Positions 2,402-34,409 of a DNA stretch of 38,867 bases are shown here, piece after piece (positions within the stretch are counted from its first letter, which is position 1; each line of letters begins with the position of its first letter). The notes below the pieces were generated by a model, which worked only from the letters and a program-made list of their open reading frames with translations, was not told where the DNA came from and ran no database searches. This stretch comes from Lachnospiraceae bacterium (GTDB lineage Bacteria; Bacillota; Clostridia; Lachnospirales; Lachnospiraceae): contig JAFTPO010000037.1 of NCBI GenBank assembly GCA_017463225.1, forward strand, positions 1 through 38,867. Reading direction: 5' to 3'. The translations under genes and the position numbers were made by a program.

Positions 2402-2457
2402 GATTTTTTATTGATAAAATTTCTCTTGAAACCGATTACAAATTTTTTCCAAATGAA

Positions 2458-2486: not shown

Positions 2487-2531
2487 AAGGGTGTGTAGAT
2501 TAAAGAAAGGACAGCCACAGGCGATATTTGT

Positions 2532-18947: not shown

Positions 18948-21554
18948 TTATTTTTTTGAAATCTTCTTTGAAAACTGAATAATAATCATAGGCACAAGGG
19001 CTAAAATTACTATAGTCTTAAGCTGGCCTATGGTAAGCTGGGCTATCATAAACAGCTTGCCTAAGAATGGTATTGTCAATACAAAGCCTAAAAGCAGCAC
19101 GCCAACAACAAATGCCCACACACTCCACATATTGCTTCTAAAGCCTACAGATAATATAGTTTTATCACTTCTACAGTTAAAGCCATGTAGCAATCTAGCC
19201 AGTGTAAGTGTAGCAAAGGCCATAGTGCTGGCCTTCATGGCCGATTCTTCATATCCCACGTAAAATGCTGCCAATGTAACCACCGCTATAGGCAGTGCAT
19301 AACAGATTAAACGGATTAAAAAGCTTCTGTTCAAGAATCCCTGCTTCGGATCCCTTGGCTTATTCTTAAGCAGACTTCTGTCTGTAGGCTCCATACCGAT
19401 GGCAAGTGCAGGCAAGGAATCTGTCAAAAGATTTATAAACAGAAGATGCACCGGTTCAAAAGGTGTAGGTAGTGCCATAAAGGAGCAAAACAGTACCACA
19501 AGAATAGCCGCCAGATTACCAGACAAAAGGAACATAATGGCATTCAAAATATTCCTATATACATTTCTACCATTTAAAACTGCCTTAATTATAGTAGCAA
19601 AATTATCATCCGACAGTATCATGGCTGCAGCATCCTTAGACACCTCTGTTCCTGTAATGCCCATAGCTACACCTATGTCAGCCTTCTTAAGGGCCGGAGC
19701 GTCATTTACACCATCTCCCGTCATGGCTACTATGCGTCCCTTCTTCTGCCAGGCATCTACTATACGAATCTTATTTTCCGGTGATACTCTGGCATACACA
19801 GACACCTTTTCCAGCACGTCATCCAGTTCTCCATCACTAAGACTATCCAGCTCCTGGCCGGTAAGTGCCAGGTCACCATCCTCATATATGCCGATTTGCC
19901 TTGCTATGGCTCTGGCAGTTACCTTGTGGTCCCCCGTAATCATAACCGGCTTTATGCCGGCACTCTTGGCATCTGCAACAGCCTGCTTAGACTCTTTTCT
20001 TGGTGGGTCAACCATAGCGCATAGTCCGATAAAGGTATAGTCCTTCTCTCCATCAAGAGCAAGCTTTTCCCCTTCATCAAGCTCCCTATAGGCAAAGGCT
20101 AATACTCTCAGACCTGACTCTGAAAACTTATGATTCTGCGCCTTAATTCTCTCCACATCCTCAGCCTTTATAGGTCGTTCGCCCTCACTGGTCAATATGC
20201 TTACAGTTCTATCTAAAAGCACATCTAAGGCTCCCTTGGTAAATAAGGTTGGCACTCCATGAACTCTATAGGTTGAACTCATCAGCTTTCTGTCAGAGTC
20301 AAATGGTATCTCCTCCAGCCTCTCCATAGCTGTTCTAAAGTATTCCTCATCTATCCCTTTTTCATCAAAGCAGGCTTCCCTTGCCATAGTCAGCAAACAA
20401 TACTCTGTAGGGTCCCCGATTCCTTTTCCATCTCTTATGGATGAGTCGTTGTTTAGCATAGCATTGTACAGGAAATATCTATGGCTTCTTTCCCCAAGCT
20501 CAAGCTGTGTTGGAGCTATGCAGGTATGGTCTATGTAAAGCTCCTCTACAGTCATCTTATTTTGAGTGAGAGTTCCGGTTTTATCTGAGCATATAACAGA
20601 AACTGAACCCAAGGATTCCACTGCCTTAAGCTCCTTAATTATGGCATTCTCCGAGGCCATCTTTCTGGTTCCCATAGCCTGAACTATGGTTACTATAGAG
20701 CTTAATGCCTCCGGTATGGCAGCCACGGCTAAAGCCACAGCAAACATCAGAGAATCAATCAGCTTCTCACCCTGCCACAATCTTACACCAAACACTATCC
20801 CGGATATTATCATTATAATTATGGCAAGCTTCCTGCCAAAGTCATCTAAGCTTATCTGAAGTGGTGTTTTCTTCTGGCTGGTAAGATTCATAAGCTGAGC
20901 AATCTTTCCCATCTCCGTATCCATTCCCGTAGCTGTTACCAAAATCATAGCTCTTCCATAGGTAACAAGACTTCCCGAATATACCATATTCACTCTGTCT
21001 CCAAGAGGCATATTTTCCCCAATTTCTATGTCTTTCTTGTCTACATTTAAGGATTCTCCGGTAAGGGAGCTTTCATTCACCTGCAGGGAATAATTGCTAA
21101 CGATACGACCATCAGCTGCAATCATATCTCCAGCCTCGAGAAGCACCAGGTCTCCCTTAACCACATGCTTAGAATCAATCTCCTGTTTGACTCCATCACG
21201 GAGCACCTTAACATGAGGTGATGAGAGTGCTTTTAAGGCCTCTAAGGATTTCTCTGCCTTTACATACTGAACTGTTCCAAGGACTGAGTTTAGGATTATT
21301 ACTGCAAATATTACTATGGTACTTTCCACGTTCCCAGATATCATAGATATGATAGCCGCTACTATAAGTATAATTACCAGCAAATCCGCAAATTGACTTA
21401 GGAATACAGCCATCACGCTCTTTCTCTCTGATTCCCTAAGTACGTTTTCTCCATCCCTCTCTAAGACCTCCCCTGCCTTATCTGAGGTTAATCCTACCTT
21501 TAAGTCAACTCCCTGAAGCAGCTCCTCCTTACTGATTTGATAGATTTCTCTCAT
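18948..21554 (-). CDS. P2-type cation ATPase (Ca2+/Mn2+ exporter), riboswitch-controlled
   Basis: 868-aa P-type ATPase of the PMR1/SERCA-like calcium-transporting group. Visible are the actuator motif SLTGES, the phosphorylation site SDKTGTLTQNK, KGALDV and TGDHKVTAR in the nucleotide-binding domain, and the hinge GDGVNDAPALKKADIG. Membrane helix 4 reads AAIPEAL where most Ca2+ pumps have PEGL, and helix 6 reads NLLTDSLPALAIG. Start 21554 has GGAG 8 bases upstream; an in-frame ATG at 21578 would overlap the SD. The leader holds a yybP-ykoY-type Mn2+ riboswitch, so Mn2+ detoxification is the likely role, in parallel with the CaCA exchanger at 11.7 kb. Substrate choice between Ca2+ and Mn2+ is inferred from regulation, not sequence. 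Confidence 0.92.
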   Translation of the reverse strand: MREIYQISKEELLQGVDLKVGLTSDKAGEVLERDGENVLRESERKSVMAVFLSQFADLLVIILIVAAIISMISGNVESTIVIFAVIILNSVLGTVQYVKAEKSLEALKALSSPHVKVLRDGVKQEIDSKHVVKGDLVLLEAGDMIAADGRIVSNYSLQVNESSLTGESLNVDKKDIEIGENMPLGDRVNMVYSGSLVTYGRAMILVTATGMDTEMGKIAQLMNLTSQKKTPLQISLDDFGRKLAIIIMIISGIVFGVRLWQGEKLIDSLMFAVALAVAAIPEALSSIVTIVQAMGTRKMASENAIIKELKAVESLGSVSVICSDKTGTLTQNKMTVEELYIDHTCIAPTQLELGERSHRYFLYNAMLNNDSSIRDGKGIGDPTEYCLLTMAREACFDEKGIDEEYFRTAMERLEEIPFDSDRKLMSSTYRVHGVPTLFTKGALDVLLDRTVSILTSEGERPIKAEDVERIKAQNHKFSESGLRVLAFAYRELDEGEKLALDGEKDYTFIGLCAMVDPPRKESKQAVADAKSAGIKPVMITGDHKVTARAIARQIGIYEDGDLALTGQELDSLSDGELDDVLEKVSVYARVSPENKIRIVDAWQKKGRIVAMTGDGVNDAPALKKADIGVAMGITGTEVSKDAAAMILSDDNFATIIKAVLNGRNVYRNILNAIMFLLSGNLAAILVVLFCSFMALPTPFEPVHLLFINLLTDSLPALAIGMEPTDRSLLKNKPRDPKQGFLNRSFLIRLICYALPIAVVTLAAFYVGYEESAMKASTMAFATLTLARLLHGFNCRSDKTILSVGFRSNMWSVWAFVVGVLLLGFVLTIPFLGKLFMIAQLTIGQLKTIVILALVPMIIIQFSKKISKK

Positions 21555-21611
21555 ATTCATTTCTCCTTCCTGAAACATAAAGATTTACCATATGTAACGT
21601 GCGGGCAATAT

Positions 21612-21758
21612 AAAAAGACTTTCCGCGCACTATCTCCCAGCACGCAAAAAGTCTTGTTCAATACATTGCCTATTCCCCGGTTCCCACTTTTGGCTCAAAT
21701 AAAAGGAACGTGATGACGAATAATAGGACACACCACCGTGTGCAACTACTCCCTTTTT
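21612..21758 (-). promoter_or_regulatory. yybP-ykoY-type manganese riboswitch with terminator (second copy)
   Basis: Minus-strand AAAAAGGGAGTAG (21746-21758) begins the aptamer. CGTCATCACG (about 21709-21718) and a long arm follow, and the 3' strand AACAAGACTTTTT (to 21646) can close P1 with the 5' A/G run. The same AAGACTTTTT alternatively starts a terminator: it pairs with GGAAAGTC (21617-21624), with GCGTGC/GTGCGC extending the stem, and a T tract at 21612-21616. Layout and key words match the riboswitch at 11531-11670. The 304-base gap before the ATPase is filled by this element and its promoter. Confidence 0.8.
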
Positions 21759-21786
21759 GTTTTAGCATTTGCTTTATGTTTTCCAT

Positions 21787-21815
21787 ATATTAACACAAGC
21801 TGCCTCTTAATGTAA
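21787..21815 (-). promoter_or_regulatory. Promoter of the riboswitch-cation ATPase transcript
   Basis: Minus-strand TTACAT (21810-21815), 17 bases, TAATAT (21787-21792), about 30 bases upstream of the aptamer. Confidence 0.6.
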
Positions 21816-21858
21816 ATGAATATTCAGTGAAGATTTAGTAAAGGATTATTGAGTTTTC

Positions 21859-22545
21859 TTACTCTCTCGACACTCCTATACAGGTTCCGACACATTCAAC
21901 CACTTCCAGGTCCTCAAGTATAATATCCTCCCTGTGTCCGGCCACGCATCTTAGTATATACTTTCCATCCTCTTCTAAGAATTTTCTAATATAGCCAACT
22001 CCCTCTTTCACAAACACAGCCTTCTCTCCATGGTCAGGGTACCTGTCCTCTAAAAGCAGAATATCTCCCTTTAAATATGCAGGGGCGTAGCTGTTGCTTA
22101 TAATCTTTATAGCCACGTATGCGTTTGGCTTAGTGGTACTTACCTCAACAACCTCGCTGTCTGTATATGCAAAGCCATGATTTATTCTTCCTGCGGGTAT
22201 AAGACAAGGCACCATATGTCTATCTGTGTGCTCTCTATCCAATTTGGAAACTGTTGCCTCGTGTCTGGCAACCAGCTCTACTAAGCTTCTTCCGTGATTA
22301 CCGCACAGACGATAGTACTGCAGAAGTCTCTTCTCCTCGTGAGTGTGGGGACAATGCCCCATAAGGCAGTTAACACTTAGGTTAAATGCATCTGCTATAC
22401 TCATAACCGTAGATATCTTTGGGTCACCCGTCTTTCCATAATATACATTTTTAACCGTCTCTATAGGAAGATTGGCCTTGTCAGCCAGCTGCTGTATGGT
22501 CATTCCCTTTGAATTCATGATGTCTCTTATTCTTGTGCAAAGCAT
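21859..22545 (-). CDS. XRE-family repressor with S24/LexA-like C-terminal domain
   Basis: 228-aa regulator. Residues 1-~65 are a Cro/CI-type helix-turn-helix (MTIQQLADKANLPIETVKN; STVMSIADAFNLSVNCLMG). A linker follows, then an S24-like domain with ISNSYAPAYLKGDILLLE, in which the Ser equivalent to the LexA nucleophile is present. The general-base lysine position reads GYIRKF, so Lys may be replaced by Arg and self-cleavage is uncertain. The start at 22545 has AAAGGAGG 8 bases upstream; the in-frame ATG at 22584 would run through the operator palindrome. It is divergent from the Spo0A-like gene and reads towards the cation ATPase. Autoregulation through 22569-22584 is inferred. Confidence 0.88.
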   Translation of the reverse strand: MLCTRIRDIMNSKGMTIQQLADKANLPIETVKNVYYGKTGDPKISTVMSIADAFNLSVNCLMGHCPHTHEEKRLLQYYRLCGNHGRSLVELVARHEATVSKLDREHTDRHMVPCLIPAGRINHGFAYTDSEVVEVSTTKPNAYVAIKIISNSYAPAYLKGDILLLEDRYPDHGEKAVFVKEGVGYIRKFLEEDGKYILRCVAGHREDIILEDLEVVECVGTCIGVSRE

Positions 22546-22568
22546 ATGTATTCCTCCTTTAAACACCG

Positions 22569-22604
22569 ATGTCAAATTTGACATTTCATTACGACATTTT
22601 TCAA
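22569..22604 (-). promoter_or_regulatory. Promoter and 16-bp operator palindrome of the XRE repressor
   Basis: ATGTCAAATTTGACAT (22569-22584) is a perfect palindrome. It covers the -10 (TCAAAT, 22576-22581) of a promoter whose -35 TTGAAA (22599-22604) is 17 bases away. Extra ATGTC half-sites lie next to it. Further palindromes in the same divergent region are CAAAATATTTTG (22635-22646) and TGACGTCA (22655-22662), near the Spo0A-like gene. Confidence 0.65.
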
Positions 22605-22681
22605 AAACAAAATGTTAAAAATAATATTTCTCGCCAAAATATTTTGTAATATTATGACGTCACAGAAAGGGGATGAAATTT

Positions 22682-23044
22682 ATGTATCAAGGAGAAATGT
22701 GCGATGTAATGGTAGATGATATTCAGGATGTACTTTTAGATATTGGCATCCCTTCAAGCTTACTTGGCTTTATGTATATCACCTACGCGGAGCAGCTGGT
22801 TTTAGCTGACCCAAGCTATATGAGAAAGATAACCAAAGGGCTTTACAAGGAAATCGCCTCAAAGTACGATTCTACGCCTACTAGAGTGGAGCGTTGCATA
22901 CGCCACGCCATCGAGGTGGGATGTACTCAGGGCAATACCGAAAGCATCTATAGGTTATTCAGACACAGTGTTAATCCACTTAAGGGAACACCTACAAATG
23001 GTCAATTCATAGCAAGAGTTTACTATCACCTAGCCAACCGTTAA
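22682..23044 (+). CDS. Stand-alone Spo0A C-terminal DNA-binding domain protein
   Basis: 120 aa, essentially all of it a Spo0A effector domain. The segment STPTRVERCIRHAIEVG matches the recognition-helix region of Spo0A (TASRVERAIRHAIEV), and GNTESIYRLF and PTNGQFIARV follow as in the family. The receiver domain of genuine Spo0A is absent, so binding cannot be controlled by phosphorylation of the same chain. ATG 22682 is chosen because AAAGGGG lies 9 bases upstream; the ATG at 22673 directly abuts it. The gene is divergent from the XRE-S24 repressor and ends in a strong bidirectional terminator. It may bind 0A-box-like sites, modulate Spo0A targets, or control the neighbouring genes; all three are inference. 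Confidence 0.88.
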   Translation: MYQGEMCDVMVDDIQDVLLDIGIPSSLLGFMYITYAEQLVLADPSYMRKITKGLYKEIASKYDSTPTRVERCIRHAIEVGCTQGNTESIYRLFRHSVNPLKGTPTNGQFIARVYYHLANR

Positions 23045-23046
23045 TT

Positions 23047-23089
23047 AAAAAACAGACGCTGCAAAATAATATTGCAGCGTCTGTTTTTT
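23047..23089. terminator. Bidirectional intrinsic terminator
   Basis: A run AAAAAACAGACGCTGCAA (23047-23064) pairs with TTGCAGCGTCTGTTTTTT (23072-23089), with A and T runs on both sides. It sits between the Spo0A-like gene and the 3' end of the four-gene minus-strand operon. Confidence 0.92.
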
Positions 23090-23248
23090 ACACACTATAA
23101 GACACATATTTTCGCCTTAATATTATTTTTATGGAGGGAATTTTACAGCTATCGATTTTTACTGTCAATATTTTTTAAGTGTCACAAACGACATCTTATC
23201 CATTTCTTTACCGACAAATATCTTCAAGCTGAATATGATTCCTAACCA

Positions 23249-24928
23249 TTAGGTGCAATGAGCTAACAGACAGGCCACCTTGTCTCCATTAAGCTTTACC
23301 TTAGTAGCGTAGGCAATTGCTCCTTCGAAGCAGGCTTTATCAGCAAAGGCTCCCTTTTTAATAGCCATAATAAACAAATCCATAGCACAGTAGTCTATCA
23401 ACTCTCGCTGAAGAGTATTTAGAGCTCTATCCCTATAATACGGAAGCGTCATATCAGCCACCTTTACTCTAAACTCATCCACCTGTTTAACCCACTTAAA
23501 GCCCTCCGACATAGCCTCCTCTATACCAACCATAACATAGTCATAGTTCATCACCATTATGGCGCCGTTTTGGTCCTTCATATACTCCTGTTCATCAAAG
23601 TCATAAAGACCTTTTCCATCACTTATAAGCTGGCATACGGTATTGTCCAATATAATCCTATTCCCTGTAAGGCTTTTATAGGCATAAAGCAGCACCTCCT
23701 TATCAGGATATACCACTGACATATTGTTTATACAATCACTTTCAACTAAGCAGCTCACATCTAAAAAGGCACTTAAGGATACCCCTTTTGGAGTCATTGT
23801 TCTGGCATAGTCTCTCAATTCATTTATAAATCTGTGGTCATATACAGCATTTTTCTTAGCTACACTATAATTGCCTTTTTGAATGTCTTCTACAGTTCCC
23901 ACCTTTGTACATACAAAGTTGTGAATCAGGCTGACATAAGCTCTTACCACTCCCTGAGAAAATATTTGCATCATTTCCTTATCTGACCTACACATCTTCT
24001 CTACAAGCTTTAGCTTGTCAACACTGTACCACCTACTAATTCTATCCGGAATATATGCAACAGTATTACACTCTTCAAAATAATAGTATAGAAGCCATAA
24101 TCTGTCTCTTTGCTCCTTGTACCTATGCTTCATCAGTATTAGAATAACTCTCTCTGCAAAACCATCATGGCCACTTAAAATATCAAAACTATGTTTCCAT
24201 TCCTTAACACCTGTCCTACTAAAGTATCTTTTTCTTCGCTTAAGGATAAGCTCTAATGTAGATATGCTCTGTTCCCTATAATACTTTGTCTCAGTAGACC
24301 AATCCATATTTTTCCTGTTCATAGGAAAAACATGTCCGCTAGTAATATTCCTTGGCTCTAACAATCTTCTTAAGGAATGTGGTTTATCCATGCCGTAAAA
24401 TTGTTTCCTCTCCCAGCTCATCTGAGTGAAGATATGAAGCCTTAGGTCATCCGGCATCTTGGGGTCTGCTATGGCATAGTTGAGTATATCACCGGAGCCT
24501 TTGCCGAAAAGCTGTGCTTTACCCTTATTTTTCCGCTCCTCGTATAAGTTCAAGTAGCAATGCATACATACGGTCTTGCTTGGGGATACATAGGTAAGAC
24601 GCGTATTCTTATCCTTAATTAGATTTCCGGCCAAGGCATATTCTCCTAAAAATATGGCCATAAGCACAGGCTGAGCCACTACACAGATGTTTCCATCCTC
24701 AGGATCATCACTGTCATATCCTAAAGCCTCGTACTCCCTCCCAAACTTAGACATATACTCTTTGTGTGTCATACGAAGCCCCATATTTCCTCTACTATTA
24801 AGTATAATTGTGTCAGGATCCCTCAGTTGCTTTAACACAGTCTTTAAGGACTGGAAGCTACAATCCTTTAAATCTTCCTCATGGCCTAGTTTAACATCCC
24901 TATGAGAATTTACAACAGATAATCCCAT
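23249..24928 (-). CDS. Unrecognised 559-aa protein, last gene of the MoxR-vWA operon
   Basis: I do not recognise this protein. It is soluble, with no signal peptide or membrane helix, and rich in Tyr, Arg and Lys. Much of it looks helical. Segments such as MAIFLGEYALAGNLIKDK near residue 90 and LFIMAIKKGAFADKACFEG near the C-terminus look like ankyrin-type or other helical-repeat units, so a solenoid scaffold is plausible. A pair of cysteines in VCMHCYLNLYEER (about residues 121-133) might bind metal. GGGGGGA precedes the ATG and the upstream MoxR stop is 12 bases away, overlapping the SD, which implies translational coupling. It may be the substrate, adaptor or effector of the MoxR-vWA pair. 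No terminator is evident after its stop. Confidence 0.8.
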   Translation of the reverse strand: MGLSVVNSHRDVKLGHEEDLKDCSFQSLKTVLKQLRDPDTIILNSRGNMGLRMTHKEYMSKFGREYEALGYDSDDPEDGNICVVAQPVLMAIFLGEYALAGNLIKDKNTRLTYVSPSKTVCMHCYLNLYEERKNKGKAQLFGKGSGDILNYAIADPKMPDDLRLHIFTQMSWERKQFYGMDKPHSLRRLLEPRNITSGHVFPMNRKNMDWSTETKYYREQSISTLELILKRRKRYFSRTGVKEWKHSFDILSGHDGFAERVILILMKHRYKEQRDRLWLLYYYFEECNTVAYIPDRISRWYSVDKLKLVEKMCRSDKEMMQIFSQGVVRAYVSLIHNFVCTKVGTVEDIQKGNYSVAKKNAVYDHRFINELRDYARTMTPKGVSLSAFLDVSCLVESDCINNMSVVYPDKEVLLYAYKSLTGNRIILDNTVCQLISDGKGLYDFDEQEYMKDQNGAIMVMNYDYVMVGIEEAMSEGFKWVKQVDEFRVKVADMTLPYYRDRALNTLQRELIDYCAMDLFIMAIKKGAFADKACFEGAIAYATKVKLNGDKVACLLAHCT

Positions 24929-24940
24929 AATATCCCCCCT

Positions 24941-26431
24941 TTAAGCCGAAACTCCATAGTTAGCCTTGCACAGTCTAACATAATCCGGATTTCTGGTAGT
25001 TGCTGCCACTGACAATATATCTCTGTTCTCATTGATAAGCTGATAGCATCTGTAGCATATACTACAAGCTCCCTCATCAATATCCTCAGCAAAGCTAATA
25101 AAATTAGAGATATTTCCGGAGATTTCAAGTTTTAGGAGCTGAATACTTCTATCCGTCTCACCAATAATCTCATCCAATCTGTCCATAATATCCTGATTAC
25201 ATATCATTTCAGTCTCTTCCACATCATAAAAATCATCATCCTCTACAGGAACTATCAGGTCATACAACAATCTCTCCTCTATTTCATCCAGCTCCTTATA
25301 CTCTACATCCTCCTTATCCCATCTCGGTATATCTCCACCATCCTGGTAACCAAATACATTCCCCGGACCCATACCAGCCAGTCTGTTGCTTATAGCCTGA
25401 TAAAGATTATTTACAGTATCAAAATAGCCCTTAAAATACTGAGCAAGATCCCTTCTTTCATCCAAGACTACTAATTCCTTAGCCTTATCACCTATTACTC
25501 CTGCTATAACCTCCAAGGAATTCCACTTAGAAAACAAGCTTCCACCCTCGAAGTATTTCACATAGTATTTTTGATTGCCATTTATCAAATCAACTATTTT
25601 ATCCCTGCTAAGCCCTATACAGTTAAGCTTGTAGTGTCCTAAAAAGCCTGCTGCTATCTTCTCATCTCTTATAAACTGAGTTACCAGTGACAGAGATATA
25701 GGCTTATCCAGCTGTTCCATGCCATATATGGCGTGACTTAGATTCTCCCAGCCTCTGCAGGTAACCAAGGTCTCCTCCTTAGAATTTACAACACATTTAT
25801 ATACATAATTCTCATGCTTCTCCAGGTAATCACATATAGTTGGATGAAATCCTTTCTCACGGGCATAGCTTATAAATACCTTTGGCTCGAATCTAACCTT
25901 AAGCTTTCTCAGTCTGTCCAACACCGCAGCATCGAAGCTTCTGACATTCTTGTTATACTCCTTAGGATTACCACAAAGCACTATAACCCAACCCTCCGGC
26001 AAGCTGTGAGCTCCAATATTCTTAGTCTGAAGGAAGGCCAGCATAGCCGGCATAATACTGTCTGATACACAAGAAAACTCATCTAGCAGCAGGATTCCCT
26101 CTTTGTATCCCTGCTCTTTTTTCTCCATAACCTTTGCAATTATCTCAGACATAGTGTACTCAGTGTACTTGCCACACTGAAGCTCCTCTATAACAGGTAA
26201 TCCCAATAGAGAATTTCTGGTGTGATGGGTTAAGCTAAAGCTTACAAAGCCTATTCCCAGTTCCTCTGCCACCTGTGCCACCACCTCAGTTTTTCCTATA
26301 CCCGGTCCTCCCTCCAAATAAAAGGGAAGTCTGTTAACCTCCTTCATTATATAATTATCAGACATATCCTTAAGCAGATAAACCCTGATTCCATCTATAA
26401 GATTCTCCTTAGCCTCAGCCACTGTATACAT
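24941..26431 (-). CDS. MoxR-type AAA+ ATPase
   Basis: 496-aa AAA+ protein. Walker A is GGPGIGKTEVV (near residue 45). SLTHHTRNSLLGLP matches the MoxR/dynein-related pore region, Walker B is ILLLDEFSC, and sensor 1 falls in VLCGNPKEYNKNVRSFD, with candidate arginine-finger residues in LDRLRKL. The C-terminal ~200 residues are family-specific, acidic and helical, ending in ICYRCYQ. MoxR ATPases act with vWA-domain partners as chaperone-like machines that remodel or activate a third protein. The vWA gene is 19 bases upstream and an unknown gene 12 bases downstream, the classical ternary layout. Start supported by GGGGGAAG about 6 bases upstream. Confidence 0.9.
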   Translation of the reverse strand: MYTVAEAKENLIDGIRVYLLKDMSDNYIMKEVNRLPFYLEGGPGIGKTEVVAQVAEELGIGFVSFSLTHHTRNSLLGLPVIEELQCGKYTEYTMSEIIAKVMEKKEQGYKEGILLLDEFSCVSDSIMPAMLAFLQTKNIGAHSLPEGWVIVLCGNPKEYNKNVRSFDAAVLDRLRKLKVRFEPKVFISYAREKGFHPTICDYLEKHENYVYKCVVNSKEETLVTCRGWENLSHAIYGMEQLDKPISLSLVTQFIRDEKIAAGFLGHYKLNCIGLSRDKIVDLINGNQKYYVKYFEGGSLFSKWNSLEVIAGVIGDKAKELVVLDERRDLAQYFKGYFDTVNNLYQAISNRLAGMGPGNVFGYQDGGDIPRWDKEDVEYKELDEIEERLLYDLIVPVEDDDFYDVEETEMICNQDIMDRLDEIIGETDRSIQLLKLEISGNISNFISFAEDIDEGACSICYRCYQLINENRDILSVAATTRNPDYVRLCKANYGVSA

Positions 26432-26450
26432 ATCATCTTCCCCCTTTCCT

Positions 26451-27866
26451 TTATATGTCTATCAACCTCACCCACTCAGGCAGGTCTACACTGTAATAAT
26501 TCTCTCTTGAATCCCACTCCTTAGGAACCACAAAATACACCGGATAATCCGGCTTATAATCAGGAAACTCTCCACAGGCGTCAGTCAGATATATCAATCC
26601 TTGAACATTTTCTCCCTGATCCTTTAACTGAGCAATCCTATCAAATACCGGCACAAAGCTGGTTCCACCAAAGCCCTTAAACTCCATATCTTCTCCTAAA
26701 AAATCTATATCATCATGGTTTAAGCAAAGCTCCTCCTGTATCTCATAGTCGCATTGAATCAAATGCACATTTCCAAATCTCACTGTCTCCTTAAGCTCCC
26801 TAAATAGCTCATAGGTCTCCCTCAAAAACATACTGGCTATATCTCCGTTACATGAACCACTTGTATCAATAGCTATTACCAGAGAATCTATGTAGCTTAC
26901 CTCATTATCCTCTCTAGGCTCTACAAGTGGCATATCACCATACATATCCATACCATAGGTATACAACATAGAATCAATGCTATCCTCATCCAAAACCACC
27001 AGCTCCCGTTCTCTAATAAGCTCCTTTATAACCTGCTGATAGGATACACCTCTATCTCCTTCCTCTTTAGGTGTAACACATACATTCAGGTCTCCTGCCT
27101 GATGTCCAAATGCAATTTTAGAACCTCCCAGCATTAGCAAAGCATTCCTCACATCTGAGACACCTGTTATCTGACATATGGTCACTCTGGCATTCTCCCA
27201 CATTTCCTTAATAGCATTCTCAAGATTATCCATACTTGCTTTCTCAGTGGAACCTAAAACATCCTTACCCCAATATCTGTGGTCATCTGCTCTCACACCC
27301 TTTTCTCCGGTCAAAATATCCAGTGCCAAAGCCCTGCTTCCCTTAGCCACATGATACAGGGAATCTCCCTGCAGCTTATCTTTATACAGAGGCGAGTATA
27401 CTATTCTGCCAAGAGCCTGCTCCACCCCGTCGTTAGAAACCATCCTATGTCCACTATAATAAGACGAAAGTTTACTTATCATATCAAAGGCCTGTATATC
27501 CATAAGCCCCCACATCAACCTTTTACCGGAATACATTATGCTCCTCTCAAAATGTCCCAGTATTCCATGAATAAGCATATGTAACAATCTGTACTCTAAC
27601 TCATAGCAAGAGCCTCTATTGTACTTAAGCATCAATTTGACAGGATTGTAATAAACCTTTAGCCCATCTGTGACCATCAGTACTTTTTCCTTTACCGGAA
27701 CAAAATCAAAGCTGTTCATAATAGGAATCAACTGTGGCAGGTTGGTTCTTAGGTTGCTTTTCAACAGATTTATAACTGCTTTTGTCTCCTCAATCTGAGG
27801 AGTACTCCTCTTATACTGTGTGAGATGATAATCAAATTCTCTATTATTCCTCTCCTTTATAGCCAT
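26451..27866 (-). CDS. vWA-domain protein with degenerate metallopeptidase-like N-terminus
   Basis: 471 aa. The C-terminal half is a von Willebrand A domain with the MIDAS motif DTSGS (SLVIAIDTSGSCNG) and a later LIYLTDACG acidic site. The N-terminal half resembles the metallopeptidase-like domain found in vWA proteins of the DUF2201 type: HMLIHGILGH gives H-x3-H-x4-H, but the catalytic Glu of HExxH is Met, so peptidase activity is doubtful. An SD (GGGGGGA) lies 7 bases before the ATG. It is the second gene of the operon, 28 bases after the CbxX-type ATPase and 19 before MoxR. It probably forms the metal-dependent adhesion partner of that MoxR ATPase. Confidence 0.9.
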   Translation of the reverse strand: MAIKERNNREFDYHLTQYKRSTPQIEETKAVINLLKSNLRTNLPQLIPIMNSFDFVPVKEKVLMVTDGLKVYYNPVKLMLKYNRGSCYELEYRLLHMLIHGILGHFERSIMYSGKRLMWGLMDIQAFDMISKLSSYYSGHRMVSNDGVEQALGRIVYSPLYKDKLQGDSLYHVAKGSRALALDILTGEKGVRADDHRYWGKDVLGSTEKASMDNLENAIKEMWENARVTICQITGVSDVRNALLMLGGSKIAFGHQAGDLNVCVTPKEEGDRGVSYQQVIKELIRERELVVLDEDSIDSMLYTYGMDMYGDMPLVEPREDNEVSYIDSLVIAIDTSGSCNGDIASMFLRETYELFRELKETVRFGNVHLIQCDYEIQEELCLNHDDIDFLGEDMEFKGFGGTSFVPVFDRIAQLKDQGENVQGLIYLTDACGEFPDYKPDYPVYFVVPKEWDSRENYYSVDLPEWVRLIDI

Positions 27867-27894
27867 GTTGATTCCCCCCTTTGAATGTAAAAAT

Positions 27895-29580
27895 CTAGTT
27901 GGTATCCTGGAGAGCGAAGCCTATGGTTCGCTTCTCCTCTCTTATACCCTTGAGCTTGACTGTGGCATTGTTAACGTCCGCAAGTCTTATACCTCTGTCC
28001 TTTGAGTCAGACTTAAGGTTTCTTAAGCTTACCTGAGTTATCATAGCCTTTACCAGCTTTCGCATGGTTCTGGCATTTCCGAATTCCTCCTCGTCATCAT
28101 TCATAGCGAAGTCAACGTAGTCAAGAATTGCCTGCTTAGCACCCTTTCTAAGGATATAGCCATTCTCCTTAACCATTTCCACAGCTATATCAAGAAGCTG
28201 CTCTCTGGTGTAATCCACGAACTCCACCTCTCTGGTAATTCTGGATCTTAAACCTTCATCCAGCTGGAAGAATTCTGTGGCCTCTCTAGGATACATAGCG
28301 AATATTACGGTTACGTCATCGTACTCCTCCATGTATCGAACAAACTCCTTAATAGCCTCGTTAACAAAGTCACCGGACTTGTTATTAAGGAAGAAACCAG
28401 CCTCATCCACGAAGAGAATGCCTCCTCTGGCCTCATTGAATTTTCTGGCAACCTGATTTGCAGTATGTCCCACAAACTTACCTATAAGGTCCTTACGGGT
28501 GGCCATAACAAAGTTGCCGTTTCCGCAGCCTGCCTCATCAAATATAGATGAAATAAGCTTGCCGCAGGTGGTCTTTCCGGTTCCGGGATTTCCGAAGAAT
28601 ACCATATGCTCTCTGGTATTCTTTAATAGTGGATTGCTCTTGCTCTCCACCATCAGAGCGGTAATCTCATCCACAACCTCCTTAACATTGTCAAGGCCAA
28701 CCATGGACTTAAGCTTGTCTGTTGCGTTACGGCTATCCACCACCACCGAAACCTCAAAATCAGAAGATCTAAGCTCTAGGCGGTTTCCATCCATCTCAGC
28801 ATTGTCTCTGGCAAGGTCAAGAAAGGTGGCGATATCCTCCTCGCTCATATACTTGCCTCTTTTCTTTACGAGGCTTCTAACCATAGCTGTCTTGTCGCAA
28901 TCCTTAGAGAGCTCAAACATCTCTCCATCCAACAAGACATCCATAACATGTGTCTCGTAGTAATCCTTAGGAAATTCCGGAAGCTCCAATACCTCGAAGC
29001 CGAAATCGTAGATTAGCCTTTGAACTGCCGGAGTCTTGATAAGCTTAGGGGATATCTGAATGTACTGACAAGGTGTCTTACAGTAAGATATACATCTAAA
29101 GAAATCCTCCCAATCATTGAACACATCCACGGAGCTTATGAAGATTGCGCTCTCGTTGTTATTATTTATGTTGGCAAGGGTGACTCCTAAGTTTAGCTCC
29201 TTCTTCTCTCTGTCGCAGAAGGTTATAAGATCCAAATCAACAGTTGTAACACCACAGCAGCTGTCCTCATAGCTCTCGTAATCGCAATCCCACTCCCAGT
29301 CATCCACCTCGTAGGATGCTGAGCCATATCCACCGAATACCGCTGCAGTCTTAAGAGCCATATTTCTATCATCAGTTGCTAGGATTATTCGTCGAAAACC
29401 ACCCTCGCCTCTTCTATCAATATAGTCTCTAACCACCTTCATATAAGGACCTGAAAGTCTATCTCTTGCATCGAAGTTGCTCCAAAAGAAGGTAGGCAAC
29501 GGCTGAGTGTTCTTAATATACGCTGTACCTCTTGAAATATTTACGTAGTTGCTATTAAACTTGTTCCTAAAATAATGCAT
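27895..29580 (-). CDS. CbxX/CfxQ-type AAA+ ATPase with a long N-terminal extension
   Basis: 561 aa. The C-terminal ~270 residues are a CbbX/SpoVK-like AAA+ module: Walker A GNPGTGKTTC (about residues 331-340), Walker B ILFVDEAGFF, sensor region VIFAMYPRE and arginine-finger candidates RSRITRE, then a helical lid. The first ~285 residues have alternating strand-helix segments (RRIILATDDRN; AIFISSVDVF) and a helical end but no P-loop; they may be a decayed first AAA domain, giving a tandem ring like ClpB or SpoVK relatives. AGGAGA precedes the ATG. It is the first gene of the four-gene operon. CbbX-type proteins remodel partner complexes; the partner here is unknown. Confidence 0.88.
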   Translation of the reverse strand: MHYFRNKFNSNYVNISRGTAYIKNTQPLPTFFWSNFDARDRLSGPYMKVVRDYIDRRGEGGFRRIILATDDRNMALKTAAVFGGYGSASYEVDDWEWDCDYESYEDSCCGVTTVDLDLITFCDREKKELNLGVTLANINNNNESAIFISSVDVFNDWEDFFRCISYCKTPCQYIQISPKLIKTPAVQRLIYDFGFEVLELPEFPKDYYETHVMDVLLDGEMFELSKDCDKTAMVRSLVKKRGKYMSEEDIATFLDLARDNAEMDGNRLELRSSDFEVSVVVDSRNATDKLKSMVGLDNVKEVVDEITALMVESKSNPLLKNTREHMVFFGNPGTGKTTCGKLISSIFDEAGCGNGNFVMATRKDLIGKFVGHTANQVARKFNEARGGILFVDEAGFFLNNKSGDFVNEAIKEFVRYMEEYDDVTVIFAMYPREATEFFQLDEGLRSRITREVEFVDYTREQLLDIAVEMVKENGYILRKGAKQAILDYVDFAMNDDEEEFGNARTMRKLVKAMITQVSLRNLKSDSKDRGIRLADVNNATVKLKGIREEKRTIGFALQDTN

Positions 29581-29805
29581 AACAATCTCTCCTTTACAAA
29601 GCTAGTTAATATATAATCATCCAGGATTAATACAATGAGTATCCAATAGTGCTACTGCATCAATATAATATTAGCAACGATGCAATCCTATAAAGCGGAT
29701 CAAATGGCAATATTTTCAACCCCTATTTCAATACATATATCAATCCGGAAACATCTAAATATAGAATAGAACATTTCCGGCAAAATATCTCTCAACCCGT
29801 AGTTT
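29581..29805 (-). promoter_or_regulatory. Upstream region of the AAA-vWA-MoxR operon
   Basis: This 225-base AT-rich stretch separates the two minus-strand operons and contains no gene. It holds two inverted repeats that might be operators: CCGGAAA/TTTCCGG (29745-29751/29774-29780) and TGCATC/GATGCA around 29655-29683. Several TTGAAA- and TATATT-like hexamers are present, but none has clear spacing, so I do not name a promoter. Confidence 0.4.
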
Positions 29806-29836
29806 AAAAAAACAAGGTGGAGTATTCTCCACCTTG
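29806..29836 (-). terminator. Terminator of the recQ-dprA operon
   Basis: A perfect 10-bp stem CAAGGTGGAG/CTCCACCTTG (29813-29836), followed on the minus strand by seven T residues. It separates the recQ-dprA operon from the AAA-vWA-MoxR operon. Confidence 0.93.
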
Positions 29837-29837
29837 C

Positions 29838-30830
29838 CTACTTGTTATTTATTATGTTCATAAAGTTCAGCTGCTGTCCTTCTATCTCCTCAGCATTACC
29901 AGATTTGATAATGGGTTGGGTGATAATATCATACAGCCTTCTGTTGTCCTCTATGGAATATGGTATTCCTCCTTGTTCTATAAGCTTTTGATTCCCCTGG
30001 CAGTCCGTATCCTTCCATACAAACACCTTGCCATAGTCATGCTTCATAGCTTCAGTAGCGCCTGACCAGGTTCCACCGGTACCAAAGTCAGATTCCGCCA
30101 CAAAGGTTCCATAAGCTGAACCGTATATATACTTGTTTCTATTCATGGCTCTGGCTGCGGAAAAGCCCGCTACCGGAAGGTAATCTGACAAAAGAAGCAT
30201 ATTACCTGAGAGAATTCTTTGGCTTACTTCTTTCTTCTTAATCTTACTTGCCAGAGAATCTGCCAAAAATTCCACTGCAGCTCCACCCTTTGCCATAGCA
30301 ATATTTTCGGCTATAGAATCCGCTCCTTTTGCTCCTCCGGAGTATATCATAAGATGTTCTTCAACCGCCTTATCCACCAGTTTGCTTACAAAATCAGCCC
30401 CTGCAACACTTAAGTTTCTGGAGCCTACCACTCCTATTCCAACCTTACTTGCCAGCTCAATATTTCCTGCATAAAAAAGCACTGGTGGCTTCTTAGACTT
30501 TAGCTTTGACTTAAGCATAACCGGATACTTATCATTAAGCATAGTAATGGTATGTATTCCTCTTTTCTCATAGTCATCTAAGGCAAATGCTACAGCAGCT
30601 CCTCTGTCTGCCAGTCTTTTAATGCGCTCAAGCTCTAGGTCATCATAGCCCATATTCTTTATATCCTGACAGTTCTCCAAAATCACCTTAGGCTCCAATC
30701 CACATTTTATCAAATTATCCAGAAATGTATTCCACTGGCCTAAGGAGAGGGGCTTTACGCCAGCCTCCCCATCCAGCCCAAGCTGTGAGCAAAGAAGTAT
30801 TATGCTCATCTCATTGTCTGTATATCTCAT
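29838..30830 (-). CDS. DprA/Smf-like Rossmann protein
   Basis: 330 aa. The core matches the DprA/Smf nucleotide-binding fold: GIGVVGSRNLSVAG (GSR motif), YSGGAKGADSIAENIA (the SGGAxGxD motif) and EFLADSL, with a further GTGGTWSGATEAMKH segment. An N-terminal helical region is present, but the C-terminal winged-helix of many DprA proteins is not evident. Canonical DprA loads RecA on incoming single-stranded DNA during transformation. This diverged copy follows a RecQ-phosphoribosyltransferase gene by only 14 bases and is terminated right after, so it more likely works with that helicase. A role in defence or DNA processing is inferred. Confidence 0.85.
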   Translation of the reverse strand: MRYTDNEMSIILLCSQLGLDGEAGVKPLSLGQWNTFLDNLIKCGLEPKVILENCQDIKNMGYDDLELERIKRLADRGAAVAFALDDYEKRGIHTITMLNDKYPVMLKSKLKSKKPPVLFYAGNIELASKVGIGVVGSRNLSVAGADFVSKLVDKAVEEHLMIYSGGAKGADSIAENIAMAKGGAAVEFLADSLASKIKKKEVSQRILSGNMLLLSDYLPVAGFSAARAMNRNKYIYGSAYGTFVAESDFGTGGTWSGATEAMKHDYGKVFVWKDTDCQGNQKLIEQGGIPYSIEDNRRLYDIITQPIIKSGNAEEIEGQQLNFMNIINNK

Positions 30831-30844
30831 AGTCTACTCTCCCC

Positions 30845-32905
30845 TTAGTTATCCCTGCCTGACGTATTTGCCAGGGCAAAGGGATACACTCTTCCATTTC
30901 CTGCGGCACGTAGCTTATAGCCACAGCAGGTAAATGTCCATCCTGAATCTATCATATCATCAACCAACAGTGTATTACCAGCCCTAGTGTTTAAAACTCC
31001 GAAGGAATTGTGTGCATTCTCCCACTGAGTATAGCTGTTATTAAGCTCCTTCTGACACACGGTAGCCTTGGTCTTCTCTAAACCGTCAAACAGCTCCAGG
31101 TCAAGCTTATCTGCCAGCTGAGTAGCCATATCCTTAACAAGCTTTGGACGATTTAAGGAAGGGACATAGGTTATATACTCTATATCATTTGCCTTAACAA
31201 AGTCCTTAAGACGATCAGTGGCTGCGTCAATAAGCTCTGGACTAAAGCTCTTTTTCTCATACTTGTCCTTTGCAACAACCGAGCCCCAACCGGCATCGCC
31301 ATAATTGCTTAGGCATAATCCCGGCTCAACCATATGGTCCACTCCAATCTTAGCATGGCCAAAGCATTCCTTGCTAGGCCACATCTTTCTAGGATTAATA
31401 ACCCTGCACTGATTATTGAGATAATCCTGTGCCTCAGATATCTCAGTGTTAGTAACAGAATCATCAAACAGCTTATGTCCTAAGCAGTTAGAGCACTTTC
31501 CACAGCGGTGGGCAGTCACGTCATCAAGCTCCTTTGCTACAGCCTCCATATAGCAGCCTGAGGTTCTACAGAAATCTCTGATTCTATCCAGCTCATCATA
31601 TCTCATATGGGTTATTCTATCGCTCTTGGCAATATCAGGAGCCCATATCTTTGCACTCTTAAAATACTGACGGTTAGACTTATATATGTCACCATTTACC
31701 TCCAGATACTTGAGACATTTTTCAAGTCTTCCCTTCTTTATGTTACTTCCATAAAGAATCTTGTAAAGTCCTGCTCCCGGATTATCCGTAACATAACGTA
31801 TTACGCTATTCATTTGTCCCTCTGTAGGAAAGGCCGAATCAATGAAGTGCTCATTGATAGTATCCTCAGAATCACCGTAAAGAAGTATGGCATAAGCCTC
31901 AGGTATACTTCTTCCGGCACGCCCTATCTCCTGATAATAGGATACCAGATTACCCGGCTTCTGGAAATGTATGACAAAGCCGATGTCACCCTTATCATAG
32001 CCCATACCAAAGGCTATGGTTGCCACCATTACCTTTATGTCATTATTCATAAAGTGATCTATGACAGCATCCTTTTGTGTCTGCTCAAGCTGTCCGTAGA
32101 AGGCCTCTGCCTTAATTCCTTTCTGATTAAGCCAGCCTGCTACCATCTCGCAATCTCGTATGGTAAGGCAATAGATTACTCCCGTACCGGGAAGCTCATC
32201 AATGTGCTTTGCCACCCAGGCAAGCTTTTCCTCGGTAGTCTCTAGATGAATGGTCTGTATAGCTATGGAGTCTCGTATAAGCTCGCCTCTTTGAACCACA
32301 ACATCTGTTCCCAGCTGGCTCTTAATGTCCTCCACCACTCTGTCGTTGGCGGTTGCTGTTGTTGCTATAACAGGCACATTCTTTGGAAGTAGGTTAATCA
32401 CATCGATGATTCGTCTATAATCCGGTCTGAAATCATGTCCCCAATCGGATATACAGTGCGCTTCATCAACTACAAAGCAGCCAATGTCCTGAGATAACTC
32501 CTTCTGAAGCATCTCTCTAAACTCTGCATTTGCCAATCTCTCAGGCGAGATAATAAGTCCGTCAAGCTGCTTGGCTTTCACTGCTTTGATTATATCATCC
32601 CACTCATCCTGATTCTCTGAGTTAATGGTTCTCACATCCAGATTGAGTCTCTTAGCCGAATCTGTCTGATTCTTCATGAGAGCCAAAAGCGGACTGATTA
32701 TAATGGTAAACTTACCGGTGTTGCGTCTAATTAGCTTGGTGGTTAAAAAGTATACTGCACTCTTACCCCAGCCTGTCTTTTGCACCACGAGTAATCTCTT
32801 ATTTGTCAGTGCTGACTCAATAGCCTCTAACTGACCCGGCTTAAATTCTGCCATAGGGCCGTATGCCTTCTTGAACTCTGCTACAATGTTGTCTCTGCTA
32901 TACAT
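30845..32905 (-). CDS. RecQ-type helicase fused to a phosphoribosyltransferase domain
   Basis: 686-aa fusion. The N-terminal ~350 residues are an SF2 RecQ helicase: QKTGWGKS (Walker A), VVDEAHCISDWGHDFRPDY (DEAH box and aromatic-rich loop), TTATAN, and VATIAFGMGYDKG with QEIGRAGR (motif VI). A zinc-binding segment CGKCSNC (near residue 475) follows, as in RecQ-CT. In place of HRDC, the C-terminus carries a type I phosphoribosyltransferase-like domain with the PRPP-loop motif LLVDDMIDSGWT (near residue 652). AGGAGG precedes the ATG. It is the first gene of a two-gene operon with the DprA-like gene. The fusion suggests unwinding coupled to nucleotide or PRPP binding; whether the PRTase is catalytic is unknown. 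Confidence 0.9.
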   Translation of the reverse strand: MYSRDNIVAEFKKAYGPMAEFKPGQLEAIESALTNKRLLVVQKTGWGKSAVYFLTTKLIRRNTGKFTIIISPLLALMKNQTDSAKRLNLDVRTINSENQDEWDDIIKAVKAKQLDGLIISPERLANAEFREMLQKELSQDIGCFVVDEAHCISDWGHDFRPDYRRIIDVINLLPKNVPVIATTATANDRVVEDIKSQLGTDVVVQRGELIRDSIAIQTIHLETTEEKLAWVAKHIDELPGTGVIYCLTIRDCEMVAGWLNQKGIKAEAFYGQLEQTQKDAVIDHFMNNDIKVMVATIAFGMGYDKGDIGFVIHFQKPGNLVSYYQEIGRAGRSIPEAYAILLYGDSEDTINEHFIDSAFPTEGQMNSVIRYVTDNPGAGLYKILYGSNIKKGRLEKCLKYLEVNGDIYKSNRQYFKSAKIWAPDIAKSDRITHMRYDELDRIRDFCRTSGCYMEAVAKELDDVTAHRCGKCSNCLGHKLFDDSVTNTEISEAQDYLNNQCRVINPRKMWPSKECFGHAKIGVDHMVEPGLCLSNYGDAGWGSVVAKDKYEKKSFSPELIDAATDRLKDFVKANDIEYITYVPSLNRPKLVKDMATQLADKLDLELFDGLEKTKATVCQKELNNSYTQWENAHNSFGVLNTRAGNTLLVDDMIDSGWTFTCCGYKLRAAGNGRVYPFALANTSGRDN

Positions 32906-32986
32906 ATGGAATCCTCCTATTTGTGATGATTTGTTCTACTCACAAAATAGTAAGAATTTTTGTTTTTAGCATTAAACCAGTGGTTT

Positions 32987-33013
32987 AAAAAAAGGTGCCA
33001 AAAACGGCACCTT
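32987..33013 (-). terminator. Terminator of the MerR-lipoprotein-ccdA-tlpA operon
   Basis: AAGGTGCC (32992-32999) and GGCACCTT (33006-33013) form an 8-bp stem, followed on the minus strand by a T7 run. It lies between the tlpA stop and recQ. Confidence 0.92.
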
Positions 33014-33017
33014 GTAA

Positions 33018-33716
33018 TTACTTAGTTATCATATCTATTCCCTTAATCAGTGTATCCATATCTATAGCTCCCATGGCGTAGGCTACGCCATAACCCTCTT
33101 CGTCTAAAAAGAAGGTTGTTGGCAATGCAGAAACCCCATACACATAAGCTGCGTTATTATCTGTGTCATAATATACCGGAAATGTATAACCACTGTCTTC
33201 TATAAATGTGGAAGCTGATTCTAAAGTATCCCAATATCCGTCAGTAACATTGACCATAAGAAACTGCACTTCATCTCCATACTGCTTATACATCTCTTCA
33301 AACTCCGGCATCTCTCCCTTACAAGGGCCGCAGTTGCTGGACCAAAAATTCATTACCACCGGCTTCCCTCTAAAATCCGAAAGCTTGTGGGCATTTCCCT
33401 CCAAGTCGTAAAATGTTATATCCGGTGCAGTAGTTAGCTCCTCGCTATCTTGGGCTTCAGCACCCGCACTCTCAGTCCCAGTCTGAGCATTCTCCTGCTT
33501 ATCTGCTGTAGACGTAGTATTATCAGTAGCTTCTGATGTGGTGGCTTCGGTTTTAAGCTGAGATACATCAACATCATCTCCCAACTTCTTATATAATATA
33601 GATGCACCTGCTATAAGTACGACCAAAGCTACCAATGTTATTATAAGACCTATGGGCTTACTTGAAGCTGTTTTTTGATTTTCAGTATTAACATTTGTCT
33701 CATCCTGTTTTTCCAT
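33018..33716 (-). CDS. Membrane-anchored TlpA/ResA-like thioredoxin
   Basis: 232 aa. One N-terminal membrane helix (about residues 22-44), then a Ser/Thr/Glu-rich linker, then a thioredoxin fold with FWSSNCGPCKGEMPEF; the redox pair is the two cysteines of CGPC. LPTTFFLDEEG carries the cis-proline. It should face the outside and reduce disulfides of exported proteins using electrons from CcdA, whose gene is 9 bases upstream. GGAGA precedes the ATG. A strong terminator follows. Confidence 0.92.
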   Translation of the reverse strand: MEKQDETNVNTENQKTASSKPIGLIITLVALVVLIAGASILYKKLGDDVDVSQLKTEATTSEATDNTTSTADKQENAQTGTESAGAEAQDSEELTTAPDITFYDLEGNAHKLSDFRGKPVVMNFWSSNCGPCKGEMPEFEEMYKQYGDEVQFLMVNVTDGYWDTLESASTFIEDSGYTFPVYYDTDNNAAYVYGVSALPTTFFLDEEGYGVAYAMGAIDMDTLIKGIDMITK

Positions 33717-33725
33717 ATTCTTCTC

Positions 33726-34388
33726 CTAGCTAAACAAATTTATAAATCTTCCCATAAGCCCTGTAGCCATAAGAATTCCGATTACAATAAGCAGACCTCC
33801 GCTTATTGTATTAATTACCTTATAGTTCCTCTTAATAAAATCAAAGGTGCTTTTCAGCTTGTCAATAAGCACTGCACTGATTACAAAAGGAATGCCTAAT
33901 CCTATGGAGTAAGAAAGCAGCATTCCCATCCCTATTAGCACCTGTCCCTGCTGTGAAGCCATTACCAAGGCTGAGCCAAGAAATGCTCCCACACAAGGAG
34001 TCCATCCCAAAGAGAATATTACTCCAAACAGCACAGCTGAGCCAAAACCCATACTTAAGCTTTTCAGTTCTCTGCCTGAGCCCTTAAATATATTTAGCTT
34101 AAACACTCCCAGGAAATTCAATCCAAATATTATAACTATTAGACCTGAGATAATATTTACAGCCATTTGGTATCTGCTTAGGAATCTTCCCAGAGTTCCC
34201 GCCAATGCTCCCATAGCTACAAAAACTGTGGTAAATCCCAGCACAAAGCCTAAGGCTCCTGACAATGTCTTTTTCACCGTTCTCTCTCCGCCACCTGCAA
34301 AGTAAGATATATAAATAGGTAGCATAGGCAAAAGGCACGGTGAGATAAATGTAATTATTCCCTCTAAAAATGATATTAAATATTGCAC
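33726..34388 (-). CDS. ccdA: CcdA-type transmembrane thiol-electron transporter
   Basis: 220 aa, about six membrane helices, DsbD-gamma/CcdA family; it passes electrons from cytoplasmic thioredoxin across the membrane. The two active cysteines lie in ISPCLLPMLPIY (helix 1) and GWTPCVGAFLGS (helix 4), each next to the family prolines. The start codon is GTG at 34388, supported by GGAG six bases upstream. It lies 21 bases after the lipoprotein gene and immediately before tlpA, a standard ccdA-tlpA pair. No cytochrome c biogenesis genes are nearby, so envelope disulfide reduction is the likelier role. Confidence 0.93.
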   Translation of the reverse strand: MQYLISFLEGIITFISPCLLPMLPIYISYFAGGGERTVKKTLSGALGFVLGFTTVFVAMGALAGTLGRFLSRYQMAVNIISGLIVIIFGLNFLGVFKLNIFKGSGRELKSLSMGFGSAVLFGVIFSLGWTPCVGAFLGSALVMASQQGQVLIGMGMLLSYSIGLGIPFVISAVLIDKLKSTFDFIKRNYKVINTISGGLLIVIGILMATGLMGRFINLFS

Positions 34389-34409
34389 TGCTTACTCCTT
34401 CATATGCTT

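Follow-up and report, generated by a model that had tools for sequence, protein, structure and literature searches.

We describe here a four-gene unit, A-B-C-D, on the minus strand of a contig from a Lachnospiraceae bacterium (JAFTPO010000037.1, assembly GCA_017463225.1; the whole stretch of 38,867 nucleotides, positions 1 to 38,867 of the forward strand, is referred to as the window). Our results suggest that A-B-C-D is a rare, recurring and apparently undescribed subtype of a Clostridia machine composed of a vWA protein (DUF2201) and a MoxR ATPase, perhaps acting as a conflict switch, a reading to which we assign about even chances of being right. By sequence comparison, the subtype is distinguished by the lack of a leucine-rich repeat (LRR) gene and by the presence of a CbxX/SpoVK-type AAA+ ATPase (A) and of a fast-evolving protein in the slot that D fills in the window. 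The four genes are as follows.

27895-29580, minus strand: A, CbxX/SpoVK-type AAA+ ATPase, 561 aa
26451-27866, minus strand: B, DUF2201 vWA protein, 471 aa
24941-26431, minus strand: C, MoxR-like AAA+ ATPase, 496 aa
23249-24928, minus strand: D, very fast-evolving protein without family match, 559 aa

The ends of these genes and the gaps of 28 (A/B), 19 (B/C) and 12 (C/D) bases between them agree exactly with a preliminary description of this DNA, which had proposed a four-gene operon, and a strong AAAGGGGG-type ribosome-binding site precedes the ATG of each of B, C and D. The same description had named two kinds of AAA+ ATPase, which were both recovered with intact Walker motifs, and a vWA protein with an intact metal ion-dependent adhesion site (MIDAS), which B indeed carries (DTSGS, GGT and TD motifs, with D334TSGS, T402 and D429).

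B matches the DUF2201 vWA family in Pfam (5e-16). Its N-terminal metallopeptidase-like region keeps an HxxxH motif (H96, H100) and H105, without the glutamate of the motif. Alignment of B with 12 relatives revealed that HxxxH is kept and that glutamate follows its first histidine in none of the 13 proteins; this part of B is therefore probably metal-binding rather than a protease. C matches the Pfam AAA family (8e-7), with AAA_5 and AAA_3 below cut-off, and presents Walker A GGPGIGKT at 41, DE at 117-118, N155 and R173. It appears to be MoxR-like mainly through its relatives, one of which, in locus L046, matches bpMoxR (PF20030) barely over cut-off (27.4 versus 27 bits).

The MoxR-vWA pair itself is ordinary in the Lachnospiraceae, with a B relative present in 212 of 397 family genomes. 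A first reading of 19 other genomes with the best B matches, over 9-16 kb each, located a C-like gene near B in all 19 loci, with B before C in 18 and the order reversed in L052; two open reading frames (ORFs) separate B and C in L051. Neither A nor D was present in any of these 19 loci. When 84,980 species were scanned with an alignment of B, at least 587 B relatives were confirmed, of which the best 80 were kept; overall, 92 of 99 B loci have C no more than 6 kb away. Across the common loci, homology covers most of the length of B and, in C, chiefly the AAA domain; the MIDAS and Walker motifs are kept. Four neighbours of the common pair were scanned and all proved to be LRR_5 (BspA-type) proteins. 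One locus, L103 (3307-12484), shows three LRR-like proteins (named by eye) around B and a PsyrT/DpdF-like helicase upstream, with no C within 6 kb.

A second AAA+ ATPase joins this pair repeatedly. A adjoins B and/or C in eight further loci, which span at least two families. Five of them, with an A-like gene near both B and C, are among the best 80 B loci of at least 587 (L093, L094, L095, L099 and L111); the other three (L264 in genome G782, L268 in G807 and L269 in G781) were added by a survey of 37 same-genus genomes, with inspection limited to the best B or D matches. Genome G802, a sheep-rumen Lachnospiraceae metagenome-assembled genome of the same genus as the window genome, provides the same contig as L093, with identical length and ORF coordinates, and was counted once. 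The second AAA+ ATPase of the composition originally reported is one of the parts that recur. Parts of the four-gene set persist in all eight loci, and their order is reshuffled. The order A-B-C-D of the window gives way to D'-B-C-A in L093, L095 and L099, to A-D'-B-C beside a WYL gene in L268 and L269, and to B-C-A followed by three D'-type genes in L111. In L094, B-C is followed by two ankyrin genes, with A on the opposite strand and a third ankyrin gene, while the 4.8-kb contig of L264 holds the end of C, a WYL gene, A and D', and no B. The D' assignment rests on position and divergence, and on alignment in L264 only.

The partner of the pair is swapped between the two kinds of locus. An LRR_5-like gene lies within 2.5 kb in 82 of 96 common loci and in none of seven A-type loci (Fisher p 1.2e-6; four common loci are counted twice). 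Two of these seven are on short contigs (L264, 4.8 kb; L099, 7.6 kb), and L269, a near copy of L268, was left out. No LRR match was found in the window between 20001 and 33500. G802 also holds an LRR-type locus (L273), showing that the A-type and LRR-type loci can coexist. On the B tree, seven A-type rows fall on one side and 42 common rows on the other (support 100/99). The 42 common rows are likewise held together on the C tree (100/99), where L272 falls among the A-type rows, and a first, quick C tree placed six A-type rows on one side with support 98. L272 (contig 190 of G782, 465-3436) contains the end of B and C, followed by ORFs of 236 and 295+ aa, both without PADLOC match, and is possibly another subtype.

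The AAA core of A occupies its C-terminal half, with Walker A GNPGTGKT at 330, DEA at 392 and SR at 446, and its Walker A, Walker B and arginine-finger residues are intact. Pfam assigns A to AAA and AAA_lid_6, and its best NCBIfam matches are spore_V_K (3.2e-55) and cbbX (4.7e-46), both under the equivalog cut-offs. Against solved chains, the A profile matches CbbX (2.8e-74) and EccA1 (5.7e-62), and FtsH at just 5.6e-13. Residues 1-285 constitute a fast-evolving N-terminal region for which six of the eight other A-type loci have a homologue: a profile of this region built from L111, L099 and L094 alone matches that of the window A (28.4 bits), and A of L264, L268 and L269 aligns with the window A over 540-564 residues. 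The window and G782 proteins are 42% identical overall, with 86/282 identities in the N-half and 146/277 in the AAA half. Between G807 and G781, the A N-half retains 196/309 identities and the AAA half 268/287; DNA identity drops to 68-75% across most of the A N-half, versus 91.8% across the 11.6-kb alignment, a pattern suggestive of allele replacement or strong diversification. The N-terminal profile gave no significant match among solved chains and Pfam. Compared with the profiles of the C-terminal AAA and of MoxR, it likewise came up empty. Only the full A profile reaches p97: its alignment starts at position 257, opposite p97 residue 385 or so, ahead of the second ATPase core of p97. This match hints at a lid-like region preceding the active AAA, and a second AAA domain in the A N-terminal region is a guess.

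At E 0.001, genes for AAA proteins matching A occur in 226 of 387 family genomes. With three candidates scored per genome, no other genome was among the best matches listed for full-length A in 391 class and 387 family genomes. The window genome encodes, at C86:53494-54702, a 663-aa SpoVK-like protein that matches the A profile from position 226 and reaches further into the A N-terminal half than most matches listed.

D, which the preliminary description could not assign, has no significant family match. Its sole relative at the sequence level is the truncated D' of L264, with 25% identity and 24.8 bits in the genome search; hhalign gives 92% over 302 columns. D was otherwise confined to its own genome, both among the 37 same-genus genomes, where this one weak relative was found, and in 200 family and 391 class genomes. 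No match was found in phages or plasmids. Pattern scans, which reach close relatives only, returned seven matches in 84,980 species, none confirmed, and one unconfirmed match in IMG/VR.

All eight other A-type loci hold a divergent gene in the D slot, and in some of them the slot, regarded originally as that of an unknown terminal gene, can be given an ankyrin or ankyrin-like label. The three D-slot proteins of L094 are ankyrin proteins over Pfam cut-offs (3/3), sub-threshold ankyrin matches were obtained for L099, L095 and two proteins of L111, and no match for L093, the third L111 protein, L264 or L268. We also scored these proteins, together with 300 control ORFs, on an ankyrin profile that rests on just two repeats. 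The number of controls scoring as high was 0 for L095, 0, 3 and 126 for the 232-, 663- and 566-aa proteins of L111, 10 for L264, 15 for L093, 21 for L099 and 79 for L268. The ankyrin-like label thus appears sound for part of the D slot and suggestive for L264; for the window D it is weak, and would come through the L264 link only. In two of the compared pairs, divergence is faster in D than in A, B or C; between G802 and L095, identities are 23% for D, 41% for A, 39% for B and 55% for C.

The unit sits beside a defence pair and between sequence signals, as follows.

30845-32905, minus strand: PsyrT, RecQ-like, outside the A-D unit (PADLOC 1.4e-250, 831 bits)
29838-30830, minus strand: PsyrA, DprA-like partner, outside the A-D unit (PADLOC 1.4e-86, 289 bits)
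29813-29836, minus strand: terminator-like hairpin followed by a T run, 3' of PsyrA, between PsyrTA and A-B-C-D
23046-23090, after D: inverted repeat of 22 nt, each strand carrying a T run

The two genes that had been taken for RecQ and DprA are therefore PsyrT and PsyrA, which match along most of their length. With the hairpin closing PsyrTA on one side and the inverted repeat, a probable terminator common to D (minus strand) and the Spo0A_C gene (plus strand), on the other, A-B-C-D is probably one transcription unit. The earlier statement that it has no internal terminator holds for the three gaps, where no terminator-like site was detected; two weak terminator-like matches on the minus strand lie within the B and C coding sequences (26553-26539 and 26342-26325). 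The scanned stretch yielded 10 terminator matches in total versus 5.8 ± 2.7 in shuffles, and promoter matches were not above shuffles (34 versus 27.6 ± 5.6). At 23168-23046 on the minus strand, directly 3' of D, a promoter-like site with 11/12 consensus positions is followed by the strong hairpin at 23090-23046, an arrangement that may encode a small RNA; an RNA-family search of 21500-35000 returned no matches.

The A-D cassette is accessory and lies at a rearranged spot. The P-type ATPase, XRE/S24 and Spo0A_C genes are syntenic and about 80-93% identical in G788, G784 and G778, and a close orthologue of the P-type ATPase (70-83%) occurs in four genomes besides its own, of 21 same-genus genomes searched. 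At the syntenic spot, A-D and PsyrTA are missing in all three relatives read; the pattern that the preliminary description had named as refuting its own proposal, the four genes fixed in all relatives, was thus not what was observed. Another block, including an rRNA-methyltransferase-like gene (named by eye), occupies the spot instead, and in the window genome this block sits on a different contig, bordered on one side by a VirD4-like gene (by eye). On the far side, reading reached the anchor (the window gene at 34410) in two of the three, G788 and G778, and the G784 contig ends before it; in G777, the fourth genome with the ATPase, the contig is too short. This absence, and the confinement of D to its own genome and one weak relative among 37 same-genus genomes, mark the cassette as accessory, and the relocated block marks the spot as rearranged. 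The XRE-Spo0A pair, which had been assigned to the same accessory region, is core, being conserved and syntenic in the three same-genus genomes read. Thioredoxin-like and CcdA-like genes (by eye; 33018-34388) adjoin PsyrT, are missing from the corresponding spot of L259 and L261, and may be part of the same rearranged stretch.

Other A-type loci also have defence-related neighbours. At L094, a WYL gene accompanies a ZacC-like helicase (2.1e-82), WYL genes occur at L264 and L268/L269 (that of L268 below the Pfam WYL cut-off), and L268 encodes a protein matching the PADLOC pAgo profile (1.7e-30) about 2 kb from A. The consulted part of one report describes WYL regulators as often lying beside phage-defence loci (PMC9122601). 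WYL genes were found in 3 of 7 independent A-type and 3 of 94 common loci (p 0.004), a post hoc comparison with a profile built partly from A-type genes. The stretch upstream of the A-type genes of L093, at 1403-3913, encodes an AAA protein whose AbiO/Nhi-like and CARF3-like matches are weak, and then a protein with an HExxH motif.

An anti-phage or conflict switch is the likeliest role of A-B-C-D, given how fast D and the A N-terminus evolve, how patchily the unit is distributed and that PsyrTA and WYL genes lie nearby, although for a defence or conflict role as such the balance stands near even. In such a switch, C, the MoxR ATPase and by analogy a hexamer, would act with the vWA protein B docked via its MIDAS, and this C-B motor would hold or remodel a client, most likely D, in the manner of NorQD. 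D, with the variable N-terminal half of A, would sense a foreign or altered molecule, and A, as a CbbX/p97-type threading ATPase, would pull the client or sensor apart, turning the complex on or off. The effector would be D or an unrecognised part of A, no effector domain having been identified in A-D. The more ambitious proposal, which we hold tentatively and at somewhat under even chances, is a new class of anti-phage machine that combines a MoxR-vWA switch with a p97/CbbX-like threader, in which the A N-terminus and a hypervariable ankyrin-like partner would recognise the invader and of which the LRR-vWA-MoxR loci, common in gut Clostridia, would be an unrecognised defence or surveillance counterpart.

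Several observations weigh against reading A-B-C-D as a recurring conflict subtype. No ORF of the best 80 B loci matches D, and the D-slot proteins of different loci are mostly unalignable. The window D itself was rejected as an ankyrin protein by its own sequence, with 231 of 300 controls scoring as high and no Pfam Ank match. A of L093 and L095 aligns convincingly with the window A in the AAA half only, and N-terminal homology was not demonstrated for them. Long branches affect both trees. On the C tree, L272, on a 3.4-kb contig where A status is unreadable, falls among the A-type rows, which then require two changes; holding the seven together was rejected (approximately unbiased test, p-AU 0.0099). 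Between G807 and G781, B, C and D are 95-98% identical, so that D, at 97%, is not what evolves fast there. The defence neighbours are anecdotal, coming from PADLOC on 20 chosen proteins of relatives, 13 of them without match, and family searches found no toxin or nuclease domain in A-D. Lastly, the G807 and G781 loci lie at one common chromosomal spot, as expected of a stable gene set.

This common spot also favours the strongest alternative, that A-B-C-D is an assembly or metal-insertion chaperone like NorQD, CoxDE or RavA-ViaA, in which B-C, with A as second motor, would mature an enzyme encoded elsewhere and D would serve as adaptor. Characterised MoxR-vWA pairs, as described for NorQD in the consulted part of PMC13036017, act as such chaperones, the histidines of the metallopeptidase-like region are kept in the B N-terminus, and the common relative is widespread (212/397 genomes). 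No enzyme or cofactor gene recurs by eye in the A-type loci listed, however, the partner is swapped between subtypes, the A-type distribution is sporadic, and an adaptor for a conserved enzyme would not be expected to outpace A, B and C, as D does in two of the compared pairs. We therefore regard a chaperone role as possible but unlikely. Still less probable is that the unit is phage or mobile-element cargo serving the element rather than host defence. The rearranged spot and the relatives' block with its VirD4-like edge are compatible with cargo, but D has no relative in phages or plasmids and none confirmed in the IMG/VR scan, and none of 80 viral SpoVK-like loci (of 104 confirmed) carries B, with one weak distant C-like match among them. 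No integrase was recognised by eye among the 29 window ORFs listed, no long direct repeats were found, and the XRE/S24 gene is core. Chance proximity of an ordinary B-C pair, an unrelated SpoVK-type ATPase and an orphan gene, which the commonness of AAA genes matching A (226/387) and the near lack of D relatives might suggest, is very improbable and largely refuted by the A-like gene beside B and/or C in eight further loci, which come from two or more families, show several gene orders and in six cases have an alignable N-terminal region, and by the split of A-type B from common B.

If the conflict-switch reading of A-B-C-D is true, MoxR-vWA conflict systems, described in the consulted part of PMC7159879 as enriched in multicellular bacteria, would extend to anaerobic Clostridia with a clear partner swap. 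An LRR protein would be exchanged for a CbxX-type AAA and a fast-evolving, partly ankyrin-like protein, the machine staying constant while the candidates for recognition diversify. The partner swap, the reshuffled orders and a close pair differing mainly in the A N-half would make recognition testable by domain exchange.

The preliminary description had not recognised the arrangement, and it matches no described system found in the literature; in the open-licence literature we found no paper on the LRR_5-vWA-MoxR pair or on the A-B-C-D set. The LRR_5-vWA-MoxR Clostridia loci share a homologous B-C pair with the window; LRR_5 is present there (82/96) and absent beside the window pair, they lack A and D, and the window B and C fall outside the common group. 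PsyrTA, an adjacent PsyrT helicase and PsyrA, is complete at 29838-32905 and is a unit separate from A-D. In Dodola (DolAB), the AAA protein DolB works with its partner DolA. A matches DolB only at 3.5e-10, and no DolA match was obtained among the six proteins scanned. Some predicted defence operons of type III-A CoCoNuT place a SpoVK-type AAA next to vWA genes, according to the consulted part of PMC11090510; unlike these, the window has no McrBC-type GTPase/nuclease or TerY-P kinase/phosphatase triad recognised by Pfam in eight proteins or by eye in the other ORFs. The NorQD system, as far as described in the part of PMC13036017 consulted, resembles B-C in coupling a MoxR ATPase to a MIDAS-bearing vWA partner. 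Unlike in NorQD, no nitric oxide reductase or other client enzyme was recognised by eye at the locus, which has two extra subunits, and no client enzyme genes of NorQD, CoxDE or RavA-ViaA were seen by eye in the gene lists of the window and its relatives.

Among conflict systems, the window presents the adjacent AAA with Walker motifs and vWA with MIDAS that define a MoxR-vWA pair. The iSTAND2 and TERNS3 classes, in the consulted part of PMC8195603, combine such a pair with a class-defining third component, like the window; a general Pfam scan, with no dedicated model run, found neither these third components nor a vWA-L effector. No VMAP, iSTAND or beta-propeller component had a Pfam match in A-D at E 0.1 (the bpMoxR cut-off was reached in L046 only), and no Pfam match of A-D belongs to the families named for ternary systems in the part of PMC7159879 consulted. 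That same part describes the FtsH class of Kaur et al. 2020 as a MoxR-vWA core with a second AAA+ ATPase and extra alpha-helical proteins, its third component having two AAA domains, the first inactive, and its MoxR P-loop often reading GXXXTAKS. Unlike in that class, the window A is of CbxX/SpoVK type, matching FtsH at just 5.6e-13, the P-loop of C reads GGPGIGKT, the MIDAS of B is intact and the host belongs to a Clostridia lineage. Like the FtsH-class ternary systems (PMC7159879, as far as described there), A-B-C-D joins a MoxR-vWA pair to a second AAA+ ATPase.

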